Source: Rhizobiales bacterium Ga0077530
GTDB taxonomy: Bacteria > Pseudomonadota > Alphaproteobacteria > Rhizobiales > Hyphomicrobiaceae
NCBI GenBank assembly: GCA_001464855.1
Contig: LNEA01000008.1
Location: forward strand, 1-37,030
Reading direction: 5' to 3'
Length of the DNA stretch: 37,030 bases
Below are positions 2,217 through 11,688 of the stretch, piece after piece. The notes under the pieces are model-generated. The model was not told the DNA's origin and did no database searches. It saw only the letters and a program-made list of their open reading frames with translations. The stretch's first letter is position 1. Every line of letters starts with the position of its first letter. A program made the translations under genes and the position numbers.

Positions 2217-3035
2217 ATGCAAATCATGCAAAGGGGGCCCCGCCCCCTGTTCGTTTCGGTTATTTTGACGCTCTTGATTGGTGCAGCTCTGGCAGGGTGT
2301 GGCGCCGCCTTGAATGAAACGACCACAGCCTCCGTTGGCGGTGAGCCAATGATGTCCACTGCGGGATTGGGTGTGCCGCCGCAGGCCCCGACCTCAAGCG
2401 CTCGGCCGATCAAAGTGAAGGCCACGGCCGCATTTTCCGAGCAGATCCGTAACTTGGAGAGCATCAGCACTCCTGGAAGCGATGGCTATCGCATCGGGCC
2501 GCAGGATGTCCTTGATATATCCGTCTATCAGGCGCCCGATCTGGCCAAGACAGTACAGGTGGCGGAGACCGGGACGATAAATCTGCCGCTGGTCGGAGAT
2601 GTTCGAGCAGGCGGCGTGACCGCGCGGGAACTCGAACGGTCCCTCAAGGCGCAGCTCAGCAAAAAGTATTTTCAGGACCCTCAGGTCACAGTCTTTGTGA
2701 GGGAGTACAACAGCCAGCGCGTGACCCTTGAAGGCTCCATCAGCAGGCCCGGCGTGTATCCCTATCGCGGTCCGACAACGCTTCTGCAGTTGGTCGCGAC
2801 GGCGGGCGGTTTGAATGACGTCGCAGATAGTTCCGAGGTCATGGTGTTCCGGACGACGAACGGTACACATCAGGCGGCCAAGTTCGACATTGGGGAGATC
2901 AAGGCCGGCCGTGCGCCGGATCCGCCGATTATTCAAGGGGATATTGTGATCGTGAACACATCGACGGGCAAGAAATTGTACAACGATATTCTGAAAACAC
3001 TACCACTCGTGGGCATGTTTGGGCTGCTTCTCTAA
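2217..3035 (+). CDS. Wza/GumB-type polysaccharide export outer-membrane lipoprotein
   Basis: The product is 272 residues from the ATG at 2217; an upstream TTG at 2157 would add 20 residues in front of a clear lipoprotein signal and is less likely. The signal is a hydrophobic run ending in the lipobox ALAGC, with the lipidated Cys at residue 28. Residues about 90-165 are the polysaccharide export (Poly_export) domain, starting YRIGPQDVLDISVYQAPDL. An SLBB-type beta-grasp domain follows from about residue 167 (VTLEGSISRPGVYPYRG). The last residues are hydrophobic. The protein would form the outer-membrane channel that works with the Wzc-type protein encoded 24 bases downstream. Its length is near the short GumB class and below E. 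coli Wza. It is the first gene of the plus-strand export block. Confidence 0.93.
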   Translation: MQIMQRGPRPLFVSVILTLLIGAALAGCGAALNETTTASVGGEPMMSTAGLGVPPQAPTSSARPIKVKATAAFSEQIRNLESISTPGSDGYRIGPQDVLDISVYQAPDLAKTVQVAETGTINLPLVGDVRAGGVTARELERSLKAQLSKKYFQDPQVTVFVREYNSQRVTLEGSISRPGVYPYRGPTTLLQLVATAGGLNDVADSSEVMVFRTTNGTHQAAKFDIGEIKAGRAPDPPIIQGDIVIVNTSTGKKLYNDILKTLPLVGMFGLLL

Positions 3036-3059: not shown

Positions 3060-5354
3060 ATGCAGAATGGGCGAGCGATCGCACACGGTTACCCCGACGT
3101 CGGCCATGGTCGACACCTCGCTGCGGCAGACAACACGACGCCTTTGCGCGGTGTCCCTGGGAGTGTGGCGTACGCGGATGAGCCCCAAGGCCAAGATCTC
3201 CGCAGTTTGTTGTTCGAGTGCCTGAGAATTGCGTTCAAGCGGAAATGGCTGATTGTCGCCATTGCAATCGCAGTCGTTACGATCGGCGCGCTGCGATCCT
3301 TGATGATTACGCCGATGTATACGGCGACCGTTCGTATCCAAATCGATGCAAAGCCGATCAAGATCGTCGAAGGGGGGCAGGTCGAAGCATCGGAGGGCGG
3401 GAGCGACTTTCTGCGCACCCAGATCGAGCTGCTGCGGAGCGTAGCCGTGGCAGAGCGCGTTGTGACCCTCGCCAAGCTTGCAGACGACCTGGATTTTTTC
3501 AAGCCACGCGAGTTCTCATGGCTGAGCGCCATCGGTTCAATATTTGGCGGCGCGACGGCACAGGGCTTTGCGCAGCACGACAAAGCGGTGCGCGCCGAAA
3601 TTGCGGCCTACATTGTCGCGGGCAACCAGTCGGTACGTGTCGTTACGGGTTCGCGCATTGTGGATGTGAGTTACACCGATCCGGTACCGGGACGCGCGCA
3701 GCGGGTGGCAAATGTATACGCCGACGCGTTCATCGCCTCGAACCTCGATAAGCGCTTCCAGGCGAACGTCTACGCCAAGGCGTTTCTGGAGGATCAGCTT
3801 GCTCAATTGAAGATACGCCTCGAGGAAGCGGAGCAGGCCGTCATATCCTTCGCCGAGAAGGAAGAATTCGTTATCACGAGCGAGAAGTCATCGATCGCGG
3901 AATCCAACTTGACCGCTGCAAATACCGTTCTTGGCGGGATTATTTCAGAGCGCATCAAATCAGAACAGCTATGGCGTCAGGTCGAGAATGTCGACGCGCT
4001 CAATCTTCCTCAGTTCCTCTTGAACCCCGTGATCCAGGGGTTGCGCGCGTCCCGCAATACGCTCGACGGCGAATACAAGGAGAAGCTGCAGACGTTCAAG
4101 CCCGGCTATCCGGCGATGGTTCAGCTCCTGTCCCGCATGAAGGAGATCGATCGCCAAGTCGTGGCCGAGGTCAAGGCGATCAAGGAAACGCATAAGGCAG
4201 CGTACGAGCAGGTGCTGCAGCAGGAAAGTGAGATGCGCGCGCGGATCGAATCGCTGCGCGTCGAGACTTTGGACCTGCAGAGGCGCGGCATTCAGTACAA
4301 TAATCTGAAACGGGAAGCCAATACGCTTCGGACGCTCTATGAAGGAATGCTGCAGCGGTACAAGGAAGTCGACGTTGCGGGCGGTACGGGTGCAAACAAT
4401 ATTTTTGTGGTCGACAAAGCATCGCCTCCGGGGCGGCCGTCGTCGCCCAACCTGAGCCGGTCCTTGATCTTGTCGCTGATGCTGGGGTTGGGGGGAGGGT
4501 TCGGCGTAGCGTTTCTCCTCGAGCGCCTCGACGATGCGGTTCGTTCGCCGGACGAACTCGAGCGACTATCGGGAGTGCCAACACTCGGCGTGATTCCGAA
4601 AGTCGACAAGGATGCTGCTGTGGAGCAGGAGCTGCTCAATCCGCGTTCGTCGATTGCCGAGGCGTACCGCTCACTGTGTACCGCTCTCCAGTTCTCCACG
4701 GACCAAGGCTTGCCGCGGTCGCTGATTGTTTCGAGCTCGGTGCAGGCTGAAGGCAAGTCGATCACCTCCCTCGCGATCGCGCGCCATTTCGCCAATATGA
4801 ACCTGCGGGTTCTGCTCGTTGATGCTGATCTGCGTAACCCGTCGTTGCATCACAAGCTCGGTGTCGGCAATGCGGTGGGTCTCAGCAACTACTTGACGGG
4901 CGAATTGCTGCCGCCGCAGACGTTCCAGGCGACGGATGTCGACAAACTCACGTTTATGGCGACCGGCCCGCTGCCCCCCAACGCCGCTGATCTTCTTGCC
5001 GGTCCGCGTCTTCTTTCCTTGGTTTCTGTTGGGATGGAGACGTTCGATCTTATTGTCATCGATTGTCCGCCGGTGATGGGACTTGCCGACGCGCCCCTAT
5101 TGTCAAATGTCGCCGCGGCTGCCGTTTTTGTCGTCGGCGCCGGCCAAACGCGGCCTGGCCAAATCCGGGGCGCATTGAGACGCCTGCAGTTTGCGCGTAG
5201 TCCGATACTCGGAACTGTGTTGACCAAATTCGATGCACGAAATGCGCCGTACGGATACGAGTACGGCTATGGATACGGTTACGGCTATGGGGCCACGGAG
5301 ATCACCGGTCAAAGTGACGGGTCGCGAGGCCAGCGACGTCTGACACAGGCATGA
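3060..5354 (+). CDS. Wzc/ExoP-type chain-length regulator and tyrosine autokinase
   Basis: The product is 764 residues from the ATG at 3060; an in-frame TAA at 3039 limits upstream extension. After about 60 residues comes the first membrane span (WLIVAIAIAVVTIGA), then a Wzz-type periplasmic domain with long coiled coil, then a Pro-rich segment (PPGRPSSPN) and the second span. The cytoplasmic BY-kinase domain has Walker A' QAEGKS (K566), the VLLVDADLR motif (D588, D590) and Walker B LIVIDCPP (D668). The C-terminal tail has seven tyrosines alternating mostly with glycine (Y731 to Y743), the autophosphorylation cluster of this family. It controls polymer length and export with the Wza-type protein. 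Fused regulator plus kinase (PCP-2a) is the form usual in Wzx/Wzy systems. Confidence 0.95.
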   Translation: MQNGRAIAHGYPDVGHGRHLAAADNTTPLRGVPGSVAYADEPQGQDLRSLLFECLRIAFKRKWLIVAIAIAVVTIGALRSLMITPMYTATVRIQIDAKPIKIVEGGQVEASEGGSDFLRTQIELLRSVAVAERVVTLAKLADDLDFFKPREFSWLSAIGSIFGGATAQGFAQHDKAVRAEIAAYIVAGNQSVRVVTGSRIVDVSYTDPVPGRAQRVANVYADAFIASNLDKRFQANVYAKAFLEDQLAQLKIRLEEAEQAVISFAEKEEFVITSEKSSIAESNLTAANTVLGGIISERIKSEQLWRQVENVDALNLPQFLLNPVIQGLRASRNTLDGEYKEKLQTFKPGYPAMVQLLSRMKEIDRQVVAEVKAIKETHKAAYEQVLQQESEMRARIESLRVETLDLQRRGIQYNNLKREANTLRTLYEGMLQRYKEVDVAGGTGANNIFVVDKASPPGRPSSPNLSRSLILSLMLGLGGGFGVAFLLERLDDAVRSPDELERLSGVPTLGVIPKVDKDAAVEQELLNPRSSIAEAYRSLCTALQFSTDQGLPRSLIVSSSVQAEGKSITSLAIARHFANMNLRVLLVDADLRNPSLHHKLGVGNAVGLSNYLTGELLPPQTFQATDVDKLTFMATGPLPPNAADLLAGPRLLSLVSVGMETFDLIVIDCPPVMGLADAPLLSNVAAAAVFVVGAGQTRPGQIRGALRRLQFARSPILGTVLTKFDARNAPYGYEYGYGYGYGYGATEITGQSDGSRGQRRLTQA

Positions 5355-5364
5355 ATGTGGTGAA

Positions 5365-5976
5365 ATGCGTGAGGCAACGGCTCTCGAGATTGCAGTAGGT
5401 CTTCTCCATTTGCCGTCTCGCGTGCGGGCGCTGCGCGCAAGCGACCTGCCATCCGATCTGGACACCTTGCTTCGTATTGTTGCCGGTGATGACCGCGCAC
5501 TCGCTGACGCCCTGCGGTCCGGCGATGTAGCGGAGCAGACCGTCCTATCCGCCGCAAGTTTCTACATAGAGCAGGTTCTGCTGCATCCAGATGCCGACAG
5601 TTATCGCGCGCTCGGCGTGAACCCTGATGCGACAACCGATCAGCTACGACGCCACATGGCGCTGCTGCTCCGCTGGCTTCACCCCGATCGCGAGGCAAAT
5701 GTCGCACGCGTGGTTTTTGTCGGGCGGGTCACTGAGGCATGGAACAACCTGAAGACAGTTGAGCGGCGCGCGATCTACGACGCCGCGCGCGGAAGGTCCA
5801 CTGCTGCCGGATCGTCTGGGCTGCCGGCGCGATCGGAGGCCGCGAACGCCCTGCGTAGCAACGCGCAAGGCGCAAACAGCCGGCTTCGTCGATTTGAAAA
5901 GAGGCCTCCGCTTCGGCGCTCTCCGTCCCGCAGCGTATGGCATTTTTTGCGCCATTTGATGGGTCAGGATCGCTAG
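5365..5976 (+). CDS. J-domain (DnaJ-like) protein of polysaccharide locus
   Basis: The product is 203 residues from the ATG at 5365, starting 10 bases after the autokinase stop. Residues about 78-140 form a J domain: YRALGVNPDAT, the HPD triad at residues 106-108 (RWLHPDRE), and the closing helix ending RRAIYDAARG. HPD is the signature that stimulates Hsp70 ATPase, so it should recruit DnaK. There is no Gly/Phe region, zinc finger or DnaJ C-terminal substrate domain. The 75 residues before the J domain are helical and unrecognised, and the C-terminal 60 residues are Arg/Ser-rich and probably disordered, ending in a short amphipathic WHFLRHLMG. No signal peptide is visible, so it is presumably cytoplasmic. 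A role in quality control or switching of the kinase complex is inference from position only. Confidence 0.8.
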   Translation: MREATALEIAVGLLHLPSRVRALRASDLPSDLDTLLRIVAGDDRALADALRSGDVAEQTVLSAASFYIEQVLLHPDADSYRALGVNPDATTDQLRRHMALLLRWLHPDREANVARVVFVGRVTEAWNNLKTVERRAIYDAARGRSTAAGSSGLPARSEAANALRSNAQGANSRLRRFEKRPPLRRSPSRSVWHFLRHLMGQDR

Positions 5977-6066
5977 AGCGTCATGATGGAGTGCATCTCT
6001 CTCCCCGCGAAGGGGAGGGCGACAAGTGCATCCTTCGTCGTGCGATCAACGGTTTCGGTGAACGAG

Positions 6067-7476
6067 ATGTCCGAGGAAAAGCCGTCGCGTCTAACACGCA
6101 TTTTGCTGTTTGGCTTGCTCGGGACAGCCTTGCTGTGGGCTATCATGACCCACAGTTTTGTTGCGGCGCTGACACGTGTGGAACCGACGTACGCGCTGTT
6201 GGTGCGACCCGACGATCCTGGCGTTTTGGAAGCTCTTGCGGATCGGTCAATCGATCGCCTCCGGAGCGTCACGGCGCCGGGCGCCGCTCCCACGCGTTTC
6301 GGATTCAAGGCGACAAGCGGCCCGCCCAGTGGCACGGCGACAGCCAACGAGGGGCAAGGTCCGACAGTTGACGAAATCGCGCGCACGAAGGCCGGCCTTC
6401 AGGAATGGGCGGAAGCGATGCTAGCCCAGGAGCCAGGGAATGTGCGCGCCCTGGTCGTACTGGGTGAACTTAACCGCGACAGGGACAAGAGTGACGCGGC
6501 CGCAGTTTTCCTGCGCTCAAGCGCGCGCAGATCGATCCGCGAGCCGGTGCCACTGGCATGGCTGATCGACGATGCTATCGAAAAGCAGGACTGGCCAATG
6601 GTCATGCAGCACGCGGACATTCTCATGCGAATGCACCCGCGTACCATTTCTCATCTGACGCCGCTGATCGCGCGCCTTGCCGAGTCACCGGAGACCGCAC
6701 TCCTTGTGAAGGAGGCCTTGCGGACGTCACCGACATGGCGAACCGCGTTCTTCGCAGACCTGCCCGCCGCGGTGACGGACGCACGAACGCCGCTCGATCT
6801 TTTCCTCGCGATCAAGGATACGTCGCCGCCCACCATCTCAGAGATCAGAGGCTATCTGAATTTTCTGATTCAACGGAAGTACTTTGATCTCGCTTACTAT
6901 ACGTGGCTCCAGTTTCTTCCACCTCAGCAGCTTGCGTCAGTCGGTCTAATGGTCAACGGCAGCTTTGAGACGAAGCCGTCAGATTTGCCGTTTGATTGGA
7001 CGCTTCCCCTCGACGGGACTGCGAGTGTCTCTATTGCGAGTCGCCCGGACCGCCCGACAGCTCGTGCCCTGGTCGTGCACTTCGGTCATGGACGGGTCGA
7101 ACTCGGCGGCACCAGCCAATTGCTCCGCTTGCAGCCGGGCAACTATCAGCTCGAGGGAGAAGCGCAGGGCGATGTGGTCGGGCGACGGAGCGTCAGGTGG
7201 CGAGTGACGTGTCTCGAAAATCAGAAGACGGTTGGCCAAAGTGACATGTTTCTTGGCGAGATGATCTCCTGGAAGGCATTTTCGTTCGCCGTGAATGTCC
7301 CTGCGACAGGCTGTACGGCCCAGCGTCTGAGCTTGGATCTGGATGCTCGCTCGCCGACCGAGCGCTTTGTGTCCGGGGCAATCTGGTTCGACGATTTGTC
7401 GATACGGCGGGTATCGAGCGCGGCACAGCAGCCGACGGGCGCGCTGGCGCCCCAAGGCCCCCGTCGGCAGCAGTAA
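6067..7476 (+). CDS. Membrane-anchored TPR protein with C-terminal jelly-roll-like domain
   Basis: The product is 469 residues from the ATG at 6067. An earlier ATG at 5983 would add 28 residues that do not look protein-like ahead of the membrane segment. Residues about 11-35 are a single N-terminal span (ILLFGLLGTALLWAIM). A helical TPR-like region follows (ALVVLGELNRDRDKSDAA and later repeats) to about residue 285. From residue 297, NGSFE opens a beta-rich domain of the kind that begins many carbohydrate-binding jelly rolls, with later strands such as LLRLQPGNYQLEGEAQG and a closing GAIWFDDLSIRRV. It is likely anchored in the inner membrane with its bulk in the periplasm. A glycan- or complex-binding role in assembly fits the neighbours but is not shown. 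I cannot give it a family name. Confidence 0.7.
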   Translation: MSEEKPSRLTRILLFGLLGTALLWAIMTHSFVAALTRVEPTYALLVRPDDPGVLEALADRSIDRLRSVTAPGAAPTRFGFKATSGPPSGTATANEGQGPTVDEIARTKAGLQEWAEAMLAQEPGNVRALVVLGELNRDRDKSDAAAVFLRSSARRSIREPVPLAWLIDDAIEKQDWPMVMQHADILMRMHPRTISHLTPLIARLAESPETALLVKEALRTSPTWRTAFFADLPAAVTDARTPLDLFLAIKDTSPPTISEIRGYLNFLIQRKYFDLAYYTWLQFLPPQQLASVGLMVNGSFETKPSDLPFDWTLPLDGTASVSIASRPDRPTARALVVHFGHGRVELGGTSQLLRLQPGNYQLEGEAQGDVVGRRSVRWRVTCLENQKTVGQSDMFLGEMISWKAFSFAVNVPATGCTAQRLSLDLDARSPTERFVSGAIWFDDLSIRRVSSAAQQPTGALAPQGPRRQQ

Positions 7477-8123: not shown

Positions 8124-9788
8124 TTGCCGAAACGGTCCATTCGCAACGTTCGATGGTCGCTTTCTGCCATAGCTCCGTTTTGGGCGGCGGCAGCGGCCTA
8201 TTTCGTTGCTTGCCTCGTTTTGGGCGGCGGATCGCGCGAGGGATTTCTCGGCGATGTCGCGCTGCAGACGATGGCTGTCCCGCTTTTGCTATGGGCCGCC
8301 TGGCGATTGCTGGATGTGCCGAGAGCTCATGGCGGCGGCCGCGTTAAATGGGTCCTATTGTTGTGCTTGCTGGCGATCGCGCTTCCTGCAGCGCAACTTG
8401 TGCCCCTGCCGCCGTGGGTGTGGACGCGCCTCCCCGGTCGAACTGATTTCGAGGGCAATCTCTTAGCCGCCGGGCTTCAGACCGGATGGCTGCCGCTGAG
8501 TCTGGTGCCGCGCGCGACTTGGCTAAGCGCGCTGGCGCTGCTGCCGCCTATGACTGTCTTTCTCGCCTGCCTGCAACTCGGATATGCCGACCGGCGACGG
8601 ATGAGTATCGTCGTGCTGATCACGGGGCTCACGAGTGTTGGCGTGGGGCTACTACAGGTCGCGCAGGGCGCGTCGAGCCCACTGCGATTTTATGCTTACA
8701 CAAACACGAGTGAGGCGGTCGGTTTCTTTGCTAACCGCAACCACTATGCGGCCCTGCTCTACTGCCTTGTCCTCATGGCCGCGGTGTGGACCGTGTCCGC
8801 CGTTGGCGAATTCACTCGCGCCGGCGCGAAGCTGCGCTCTCGACGCAGCACCCCGCATTTGGTTGCGATCGTTGTTTCCCTCACTGTCGTCGTGATCCTC
8901 GTGGGGGCGCAGGCAATGGCCCGCTCGCGAGCAGGTCTTGGCCTTACGACAATTGCTCTCGTCGGGAGCTTTGCGCTTGCCTTCCTGACTTCGCCGAACG
9001 AAGCGGGTGAGGGCGCGGTTGACGGGCGTCCGGCTCGCGGCGCGGTGCGACTGCTCGGAGCGGCGGTGCTAGTCGCCATCGTCTTCTCGTCGCAGTTTGC
9101 GCTCTATCGGATTCAGGATCGGTTCACGGTGGATCCTTTGACCGATGCCCGCTTGCCATTTGCACGCAACACCATCGAAGCGGCGATTGCCTTTATGCCG
9201 TTCGGCTCGGGCATGGGGACGTTCGTGCCAGTCTATCAGGCCTTCGAGAAGGCCACGGACAACGTGGCGGATTTTTATACGAACCGCGCCCACAATGATT
9301 TTCTCGAGTTCTGGCTGGAAGCCGGGTTGGTCGCGCTCGTGGTCATGGCGCTGTTTATCGTCTGGGTGGTCGGCGTGCTTTGGCGTGTTTGGCGGCACCA
9401 GTTGGAGGGCGCGGGTCACACTGACCGTCTCTTGGCCTGCGCCGCGGGACTGATGCTGGTGCTTCTGCTCGCCCACTCAACTGTCGACTATCCGTTGCGC
9501 ACGACTGCGCTGATGTCGGTATTCGCGTGGGCTGTAGCGATGGTTATCGCGCCAATCGGTGCCCATTCGCCGCCTGCCGAAACGAAAATGGGGCGACGGG
9601 ATCATGGTGCGCGTCGATCAAGGTCGCGCACGGCAAATGCGGCCGCAGGCGATGCGGCTTTGGCCAGTGACAACCAGCCGGCCCAATCAGCGGCGCACGA
9701 AACGCCACGCTTCGATGCCGCACCGGCGCGAGAGGACTGGCCCGCGGCGTGGCGCCCCGCAACGCGGCCGCCGTCGACGGACGACTGA
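8124..9788 (+). CDS. O-antigen ligase/polymerase (Wzy_C family) membrane protein
   Basis: The product is 554 residues from a TTG at 8124, supported by GAGGGG about 8 bases upstream. It has roughly 10-12 hydrophobic spans. The FFANRNHYAALL segment (N204-Y208) and the large periplasmic loop RAHNDFLEFWLEAG (H390-D392) are the conserved signatures of the WaaL/Wzy_C superfamily, which transfers or polymerises glycans from undecaprenyl diphosphate. Family membership is clear, but polymerase versus ligase cannot be decided from sequence. Residues 481-554 after the last span form a Pro/Ala/Arg-rich, low-complexity cytoplasmic tail. The gene closes the export block and is followed by a 352-base gap. 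A second, unrelated polymerase-type protein is encoded at 28530-29966. Confidence 0.88.
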   Translation: MPKRSIRNVRWSLSAIAPFWAAAAAYFVACLVLGGGSREGFLGDVALQTMAVPLLLWAAWRLLDVPRAHGGGRVKWVLLLCLLAIALPAAQLVPLPPWVWTRLPGRTDFEGNLLAAGLQTGWLPLSLVPRATWLSALALLPPMTVFLACLQLGYADRRRMSIVVLITGLTSVGVGLLQVAQGASSPLRFYAYTNTSEAVGFFANRNHYAALLYCLVLMAAVWTVSAVGEFTRAGAKLRSRRSTPHLVAIVVSLTVVVILVGAQAMARSRAGLGLTTIALVGSFALAFLTSPNEAGEGAVDGRPARGAVRLLGAAVLVAIVFSSQFALYRIQDRFTVDPLTDARLPFARNTIEAAIAFMPFGSGMGTFVPVYQAFEKATDNVADFYTNRAHNDFLEFWLEAGLVALVVMALFIVWVVGVLWRVWRHQLEGAGHTDRLLACAAGLMLVLLLAHSTVDYPLRTTALMSVFAWAVAMVIAPIGAHSPPAETKMGRRDHGARRSRSRTANAAAGDAALASDNQPAQSAAHETPRFDAAPAREDWPAAWRPATRPPSTDD

Positions 9789-10140: not shown

Positions 10141-11688
10141 TTGGCCACCGTGGTGGGTATGTACATTTTAAAAAGCCAGAGAGCTCTGGTCGTCGACTTA
10201 TTCATTGTCGGCATGGCCTCAATCGCCGCCCTGGTGCTGCGCGAGAATTTTGCGATCGACTCCGGGCAGTGGCTATCCTTTGTTCCATATCTCTGCATTA
10301 CGCTCGCCGTTGCCGCGCCAATTTTGGTCGTCTTCCGGCTCAATCGCTCCATATGGCGGTTCAGTGGTCTTGCTGATTATGTGCGTGCGGTCGCCGCGAC
10401 GGCGCTGATCGTCATCGCTGCAGTGGCGATCGGGTTTGTGGTCAATCGACTTGACGGCGTGGCCAGATCCCTGCCGATCCTGCAAGCCATGGTCATGGCG
10501 GTTGGATTGGTCGGCGCCAGGGTTCTCTTGAGGGTGCTGCATGATCGGCGCCGACGCGCTGACCGGCCTGACGTCGTGTCGCTACCCTCCGCGAACGATA
10601 CGGTACTGTTGTTGGGTTGGGGCAGCGTCACGGAACTGTTCCTCCGCTCGGCGGCCGAATATGGCAACGGCGCGGTGCAAATTGCCGGCATTCTGTCCCC
10701 CAACGCGCGCCACGTCGGGCGACTGGTGCAGTCGACTCGCGTGCTGGGTACGCCGGAAACGATTGCTGAGGTCATCGCCGAACTGGACGTTCACGGTATC
10801 CACGTCGGCCGGGTGGTGATTGCGACTCCCTTTGACCGCCTGTCCGATGCGGCGCGGCAGATACTGCTCGATCTCGAGGGAAAGACGGATGTCCGTCTCG
10901 ATTTCTTCGCCGAGCGCTTGTTTGGCTCGCCAGATACCGCAAGCTACAGCGCTGAGAAGCAAAGTGCGGTTAGCCAGAGCATAAGCGAAGGGCCCCGGAG
11001 CGATGAATTCGGGATCAGCGACCAGGAAATCAAGCGCCTTCTTGGCCGCCCGTACTGGCGCCTCAAGCGCGCGATCGATGCGGCTGTTGCGCTGATTTTG
11101 CTGGTAGTTCTTCTGCCGGTGATACTGCTGGTTGCTTTCGTTGTGGCGTTGGATGTCGGTCTCCCGGTCCTCTTTGTGCAGCAACGGCCCGGACTGCGCG
11201 GCGCGAGATTCAATCTGTACAAATTCCGCACGATGGGTGCCTCGCACAGCATGAGCGGCGAGAGAATTCCGGATTCAGGTCGCGTATCGAAGGTGGGCGC
11301 ACTCTTGCGTCGCACGCGCCTCGATGAATTACCTCAGCTGTTCAACATCCTTATCGGCGATATGTCCTTCGTCGGCCCGCGTCCATTGGTGGCGCGCGAG
11401 CAATCGGCCGACATTCTGGTCCGCTTACTTGTCCAGCCGGGCCTTACTGGATGGGCACAGGTGCGTGGAGGACGAGACGTTTCGGTGGCCGACAAAACGG
11501 CGCTCGATGTGTGGTACGTGCGCCATGCATCGTTGATGCTTGATCTCAAAATTATCGCGGCGACCGTGCCAATGGTCGTGTTCGGGGAGCGCGTTGATCG
11601 CGACGCCGTCGGTATGGCATGGCGCGAGCTGCGTAAACTCGATGTGCGTCCGGCGATGGCCGAGTCAGGCGGCGGCGCGGCGTCCTGA
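10141..11688 (+). CDS. Polyprenyl-phosphate sugar-1-phosphate transferase (initiating enzyme)
   Basis: The product is 515 residues from a TTG at 10141; an ATG at 10159 is the alternative start and would remove six residues. Four N-terminal membrane spans are followed by a Rossmann-like segment (TVLLLGWGSVTELFL onwards) and a C-terminal bacterial sugar transferase domain beginning YWRLKRAIDAAVALILLVVL. That catalytic domain has QQRPGLRG, FNLYKFRTM, LDELPQLFNILIGDMSFVGP with the Asp-Glu dyad at D395-E396, and QPGLTGWAQV. This is the WbaP/WcaJ/ExoY-type phosphoglycosyl transferase architecture. It moves a hexose-1-phosphate from a nucleotide sugar to undecaprenyl phosphate at the cytoplasmic face and starts each repeat unit. 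The sugar (glucose or galactose most often) cannot be fixed from sequence. It stands as the first gene after a promoter-like gap. Confidence 0.93.
   Translation: MATVVGMYILKSQRALVVDLFIVGMASIAALVLRENFAIDSGQWLSFVPYLCITLAVAAPILVVFRLNRSIWRFSGLADYVRAVAATALIVIAAVAIGFVVNRLDGVARSLPILQAMVMAVGLVGARVLLRVLHDRRRRADRPDVVSLPSANDTVLLLGWGSVTELFLRSAAEYGNGAVQIAGILSPNARHVGRLVQSTRVLGTPETIAEVIAELDVHGIHVGRVVIATPFDRLSDAARQILLDLEGKTDVRLDFFAERLFGSPDTASYSAEKQSAVSQSISEGPRSDEFGISDQEIKRLLGRPYWRLKRAIDAAVALILLVVLLPVILLVAFVVALDVGLPVLFVQQRPGLRGARFNLYKFRTMGASHSMSGERIPDSGRVSKVGALLRRTRLDELPQLFNILIGDMSFVGPRPLVAREQSADILVRLLVQPGLTGWAQVRGGRDVSVADKTALDVWYVRHASLMLDLKIIAATVPMVVFGERVDRDAVGMAWRELRKLDVRPAMAESGGGAAS

Follow-up and report, generated by a model that had tools for sequence, protein, structure and literature searches.

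The gene at 5365 to 5976 of the window (the whole 37,030-nucleotide stretch of DNA analysed here) encodes a conserved class C J-domain protein that is tightly linked, genetically, to Wzc tyrosine autokinases of a single clade. The link between the J gene and wzc is strongly supported. We tentatively propose, with a little less than even confidence, that the gene product is a dedicated class-C-type co-chaperone that brings the housekeeping DnaK to Wzc and speeds the switch between its ring and its subunits. An earlier note on this DNA had described an HPD-containing J domain flanked by unfamiliar N- and C-terminal regions, 10 bases behind the autokinase gene, and these points are borne out below. 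Its broader reading holds insofar as the J gene is embedded in the wzc operon, conserved and clade-wide; it does not extend to a protein indispensable for assembly, since three wzc copies of the J type either lack J or retain a degraded version. The recruitment of DnaK to the kinase complex, which the note suggested, coincides with our own proposal. The features of the operon and of the J protein are as follows.

2217-3035, plus strand: Wza-type polysaccharide export lipoprotein, upstream of wzc
3060-5354, plus strand: Wzc-type polysaccharide co-polymerase/tyrosine autokinase, 764 amino acids (TIGR01007, 150.5 bits, cut-off 108.05)
5250-5291, plus strand: tyrosine-glycine repeat tail of Wzc, residues 731-744
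5365-5976, plus strand: J-domain protein gene, ATG start, open reading frame of 203 amino acids
5365-5595, plus strand: N-terminal five-helix domain of the J protein, residues 1-77, conserved in the alignment; helices as modelled
5596-5781, plus strand: J domain, residues 78-139 (PF00226)
5680-5688, plus strand: HPD motif, residues 106-108, conserved in 52/53 relatives
5800-5973, plus strand: basic variable tail, residues 146-203, with a short predicted helix at 189-198
6067-7476, plus strand: TPR497, a membrane-anchored TPR-like protein with a conserved C-terminal region, downstream of J
8124-9788, plus strand: Wzy/O-antigen ligase-like membrane protein (PF04932)
10141-11688, plus strand: polyprenyl glycosylphosphotransferase (initiating transferase), by domain match

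The Wzc protein of the window matches PF02706, PF13807 and TIGR01007 above their cut-offs, combining Wzz, GNVR and BY-kinase parts with a tyrosine-rich tail, and its stop codon at 5354 lies 10 bases ahead of the J gene start at 5365. The reading frame of the Wza-type gene opens at a TTG at 2157, the ATG at 2217 being the likelier start. Similarly, the frame of TPR497 opens at 5983 while its relatives begin near 6067. TPR497 is anchored in the membrane at its N terminus, and a few of its relatives give weak TPR matches. Its C-terminal region is strongly conserved and may form a beta-sandwich, perhaps one that binds glycans. No LMW-PTP (Wzb-type) match was found among the window reading frames scanned with Pfam. 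Upstream of the operon, on the minus strand, lies a divergent NusG-family gene (919-1509; PF02357, 56 bits), which may be an RfaH-like antiterminator dedicated to this operon; proteins of that type often serve polysaccharide loci. Downstream, from 12046 to 35383, a long run of genes reads as glycosyltransferases, a sugar-nucleotide epimerase/decarboxylase-like enzyme, a Wzm/Wzt-type ABC transporter and an aminotransferase, roles taken from the open reading frames with Pfam support for some. With these Wzm/Wzt-type genes, Wzy-type and ABC-type export parts share one locus.

Pfam finds a single domain in the 203-residue J protein, DnaJ (PF00226; 34.8 bits, cut-off 27.8, E 1.8e-8, residues 78-139), which is likewise matched by all 31 aligned family members (E <= 0.1). 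The NCBIfam DnaJ models align with the J region alone and reach 18-25 bits, far below their cut-offs of 338-585, so the protein is not DnaJ or CbpA (class A or B). Furthermore, no glycine/phenylalanine, zinc-finger or C-terminal substrate domain was detected using Pfam and NCBIfam. Class C J proteins, such as HscB, DjlA and eukaryotic auxilin, combine a J domain with a targeting domain of their own, and the present protein belongs with them in having a J domain together with non-DnaJ regions. The domain layout was taken from an alignment of 31 relatives, in which residues 1-77 and the J domain form conserved blocks and the tail varies; A10, P17, L36, A63, A64, F66, E69, R81, H106, D108, A125 and W126 are invariant. 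The AlphaFold2 model has an overall pLDDT of 86.5, with block means above 90 through residue 150. Whole-gene dN/dS lies at ~0.09-0.25 (NG86; nine pairs compared, eight with a defined dS) and is in general higher in the tail than in the N-terminal block and the J domain. The gene is under purifying selection, N-terminal and J domains included. The window genome holds six J-domain stretches above cut-off, two of them from the wzc-linked family, the second family copy belonging to a further wza-wzc-J-TPR cassette, found on contig C317. A separate contig search gave two relatives only, as it is seeded with exact peptide patterns.

The fold of the J domain is well matched, with a VIA Z of 8.3 and an rmsd of 1.4 over 72 residues between the AlphaFold2 model (pLDDT above 90 within the domain) and 4wb7. 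The HPD motif at residues 106-108 sits in the loop between helices II and III and is kept in 52 of the 53 relatives, the exception (L035) reading HSD. Another HPD, at residues 74-76, precedes the J domain, is unconserved and was set aside as a chance triplet. Helix II has a composition particular to the family. Counting back from the HPD histidine across the 53 relatives, position -8 is M in 40, position -7 is A in 35 and R in merely 6, and position -6 is L in 35. The family thus commonly shows M-A-L where generic J domains show an aromatic, a basic and a variable residue; position -7 was basic in all nine of the generic J domains that could be aligned (ten were given, one of them without an HPD alignment). 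In E. coli DnaJ, positions -8, -7 and -6 contact DnaK. With the canonical basic residue mostly lost, the family may couple to DnaK weakly or in another manner.

Constraint on the N-terminal domain is close to that on the J domain, both in the alignment and by dN/dS, and its 77 residues modelled alone give five helices with a pLDDT of 91.9. No Pfam family is common to the N-terminal domains of the 31 members, which gave single weak matches, and a Foldseek search of this domain alone against the PDB returned 43 rows, the best at E 2.2 and none significant. Searches with the whole J model, including the VIA comparison, also gave no significant match for the N-terminal part. In these searches the modelled domain is thus one for which a relative was not found, which does not make its fold new. 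The C-terminal ~55 residues show little conservation and low AlphaFold2 confidence. The earlier description of both flanking regions as unfamiliar is therefore apt: the N-terminal domain has no Pfam or significant PDB match to explain it, and the tail is poorly conserved. Net charge in the last 30 residues is +3 or more in 30/31 members. An amphipathic membrane helix in the tail was considered and rejected: despite the high charge, the hydrophobic moment was not above that of shuffled sequences (median shuffle fraction 0.305).

We then asked how closely the gene follows wzc in other genomes. J lies after wzc, on the same strand, in all 50 readable loci, with a median gap of 2 bases; the gap is at most 30 bases in 45 of them, and the genes overlap in 23, mostly by 4 or 1 bases. 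The neighbourhood search proposed in the earlier note, for co-occurrence with wzc-type genes elsewhere, thus turned out in its favour. The set comprised 51 loci, of which one (L088) was unreadable with its Wzc not on the same piece, and was drawn up without the known-unlinked loci L006, L025 and L027; start codons were picked by rule, and single gap values may be off. These short or overlapping gaps suggest translational coupling. A fusion of Wzc to J was rejected: open frames reach up to 1006 amino acids, yet no Wzc protein stands ahead of the J start (L015, L017, L021, L022 and L024, checked by reading).

In the family sample (103 genomes, by inference Hyphomicrobiaceae), J occurs in 33 genomes, and a single-sequence search found TPR497 in the identical 33. 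Wzc matches at E 1e-60 occur in 34 genomes: 32 are J-bearing, with at least 50% identity, and the remaining two (G069 and G097) carry a 28-29% relative and are J-less. The 33rd J-bearing genome (G071) has J beside a Wzc fragment where the contig ends. J presence and absence both occur within each of eight genera (g2, g8, g9, g10, g12, g13, g14 and g25), so wzc, J and TPR497 have been gained or lost together repeatedly. Three genomes hold J unlinked from wzc: in G025, Wzc is on contig C5 and J and TPR497 are together on C2, and in G035 and G039 a different contig carries J, with TPR497 staying beside Wzc. This co-retention without linkage points to a function in common. Hsp70 is present in all 33 J-bearing genomes; in one of them (G035:C8, 500389-502182) the match falls in three adjacent pieces that jointly cover the family, reflecting either assembly frameshifts or a broken dnaK. 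We also considered J as a substitute for a Wzb-type phosphatase, using the LMW-PTP family (PF01451). It is present in 28/33 J-bearing and 64/70 J-less genomes (absent from 5/33 and 6/70), a difference that is not clear, and this candidate was rejected; one J-bearing genome assembled as a single contig (G060) is a lone case without LMW-PTP.

Beyond the family, an even sample of 297 genomes from the order contained J, recognised through its N-terminal domain, in 25 genomes of 12 families. Any J-profile match at E 1e-6 was found in 113/297, the others among the matches listed being to the J domain only. In the class sample (289 genomes), none of the 285 genomes outside the order gave a full-length J match, and one (G602) gave a J-only match. 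No Wzc match was seen near six J-only loci taken from the order and class samples (L100-L105) within flanks of up to 1.5 kb a side, a small control. In addition, the family occurs on plasmids in four Bradyrhizobium records. One of these, NZ_CP094524.1, is a conjugative plasmid on which the cassette is annotated in the order export protein, tyrosine autokinase, DnaJ domain-containing protein, hypothetical protein and O-antigen ligase, and the hypothetical protein matches the TPR497 profile.

A tree of the Wzc proteins (53 loci given, 51 rows after removal of duplicates, midpoint root) separates the partners of J from other Wzcs. Five J-less Wzcs of 31-34% identity cluster with full support, and a second group holds two J-less Wzcs that are more distant. 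Among the 44 rows of the J clade, 35 adjoin a full J, three have an unlinked J (L126, L127 and L144), three end at a contig end (L146, L150, which has part of J, and L153), two have a J remnant (L123 and L168) and one has no J (L169, in G111, where Wzc and TPR497 are kept). At L123 (G075:C23, ~5192-5482), behind a second wzc copy stands a broken J whose N-terminal part is shortened and which lacks an in-frame HPD, and TPR497 was not detected in 12 kb. At L168 (G151:C1, 8472-8561), ~30 J codons remain behind a second wzc copy, with TPR497 present; the two wzc copies of this genome are nearly identical. One lineage thus lacks J and two extra wzc copies have it in decayed form, which shows that J is not indispensable. 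The J-less Wzcs of the five-member group presumably work without it. TPR497 follows Wzc without J at six loci, L169 (G111) and L171-L175 (the five nearer J-less Wzcs), and a strict dependence of TPR497 on J, which holds in the family sample only, is contradicted by them. On the simplest reading, a wza-wzc-TPR cassette that already existed acquired J once, and a few losses followed; with the root at the midpoint, a single gain is not proven by this tree.

The Wzc tails follow the same division. YG/GY dipeptides number 5-22 in the tails of J-clade Wzcs (42/44 readable) and 0-2 in those of the five nearer J-less Wzcs. Two J-less Wzcs do have YG-rich tails, that of G111 (17) and the distant one of G097 (8). 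Because this contrast rests on one tree split, it is a lead and not proof.

In passages of three reports (PMC8285477, PMC11986026, PMC12881504), E. coli Wzc is described as cycling between a dephosphorylated octamer and a phosphorylated monomer. The tyrosine tail enters the active site of a neighbour and autophosphorylation dismantles the octamer, dephosphorylation by Wzb lets it re-form, and it is this alternation that drives synthesis and export of the polymer. The passage from ring to subunits and back is the accepted point of control in Wzx/Wzy polysaccharide assembly. Its drivers in the three reports are the kinase and the phosphatase, and the word 'chaperone' is absent from the passages. 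Our searches of an open-access library, without subscription papers or preprints, showed no paper that places a J protein in such an operon.

A mechanism in which DnaK acts at Wzc seems probable; here we infer the DnaK partnership, Wzc as client, its tail as target and remodelling as outcome. The N-terminal five-helix domain, perhaps together with the basic tail near the membrane, would dock with Wzc at its cytosolic face, and the HPD-bearing J domain would trigger ATP hydrolysis by housekeeping DnaK there. DnaK would then clamp on Wzc, its likeliest target being the tyrosine-rich YG-repeat tail, and remodel the kinase oligomer. Wzc would thereby switch faster between its ring and its free subunits, and polymer length and export depend on that switch.

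A more specific form of this proposal can be drawn from two precedents. The tail of E. coli Wzc, lying in the active site of the neighbouring subunit, holds the ring together, and auxilin with Hsc70 uncoats clathrin. J and DnaK might in the same way pull the YG tails from neighbouring kinase domains and dismantle or reset the Wzc ring in each cycle, making J the 'auxilin' of capsule assembly, a version that we regard as conceivable though rather doubtful.

Alternatively, the coupled J could bring DnaK to newly made Wzc, for the folding or solubility of its kinase domain or YG tail, and play no role in the running cycle. The wzc and J genes overlap or nearly so, the YG tails are of low complexity and no other specific operon partner is indicated, all of which would fit such a chaperone of biogenesis. 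On the other hand, J is kept unlinked in G025, G035 and G039, so that coupling itself is not required, and YG-tailed Wzc copies persist without an adjacent J. We consider this account unlikely.

A further possibility dispenses with DnaK. The J domain would serve for contacts between proteins, and the N-terminal domain would bind Wzc, Wzy or the initiating transferase as a regulator, much as RmpD of Klebsiella is described as a small Wzc-binding regulator (PMC10294653). With this precedent go the family-specific helix II and an N-terminal domain constrained about as much as the J domain, but an HPD kept in 52/53 relatives is hard to explain if DnaK is unused, and we hold such an adaptor to be unlikely, slightly more so than the chaperone of biogenesis.

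That J acts with TPR497, Wzc being a mere neighbour, appears highly improbable. The two genes occur in the identical 33/103 genomes and lie together away from wzc in G025; against this, TPR497 stays beside wzc with J elsewhere in G035 and G039, follows Wzc without J at six loci, and is membrane-anchored, with a long following part that would be periplasmic, whereas J has no such anchor. Finally, J losses and decay, and the movement of polysaccharide loci as blocks, one of them on a plasmid, would suit a gene that merely travels with its locus, but purifying selection, a position conserved over 12 families and retention when unlinked make this scarcely credible.

Returning to the proposed action of a J/DnaK pair on Wzc, the J family would add a third driver to Wzc cycling and tie polymer output to stress and to the supply of DnaK. 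If J and DnaK are indeed built into the export engine, chain length and export would respond to the chaperone state of the cell. The data suggest that a chaperone helps to run surface-sugar export in many rhizobia-related bacteria. They define a J-protein family with its own N-terminal domain, specific to one Wzc clade and apparently translationally coupled, and would offer J as a named candidate gene in Wzc control for Hyphomicrobium or Bradyrhizobium.

Like other class C J proteins, the protein has one HPD-bearing J domain and an extra domain of its own; unlike them, it carries the J domain after a five-helix N-terminal domain for which we found no relative, its gene is fixed behind a tyrosine autokinase, and its helix II is of odd composition. 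The logic would be that of auxilin and Hsc70, in which a J protein brings Hsp70 to dismantle a ring or lattice, although the target differs and the parallel is conjectural here. The locus resembles the Wza-Wzc-Wzy systems of the E. coli K30 group 1 capsule and colanic acid in uniting a Wza-type protein, a tyrosine-tailed Wzc, a Wzy-like ligase and an initiating transferase, and differs from them in having J and a TPR-like membrane protein after wzc, with no Wzb-type match in the window frames scanned. RmpD is not known to be a J protein, unlike the wzc-linked J family. It nevertheless resembles J as an accessory protein proposed to act on Wzc (PMC10294653).
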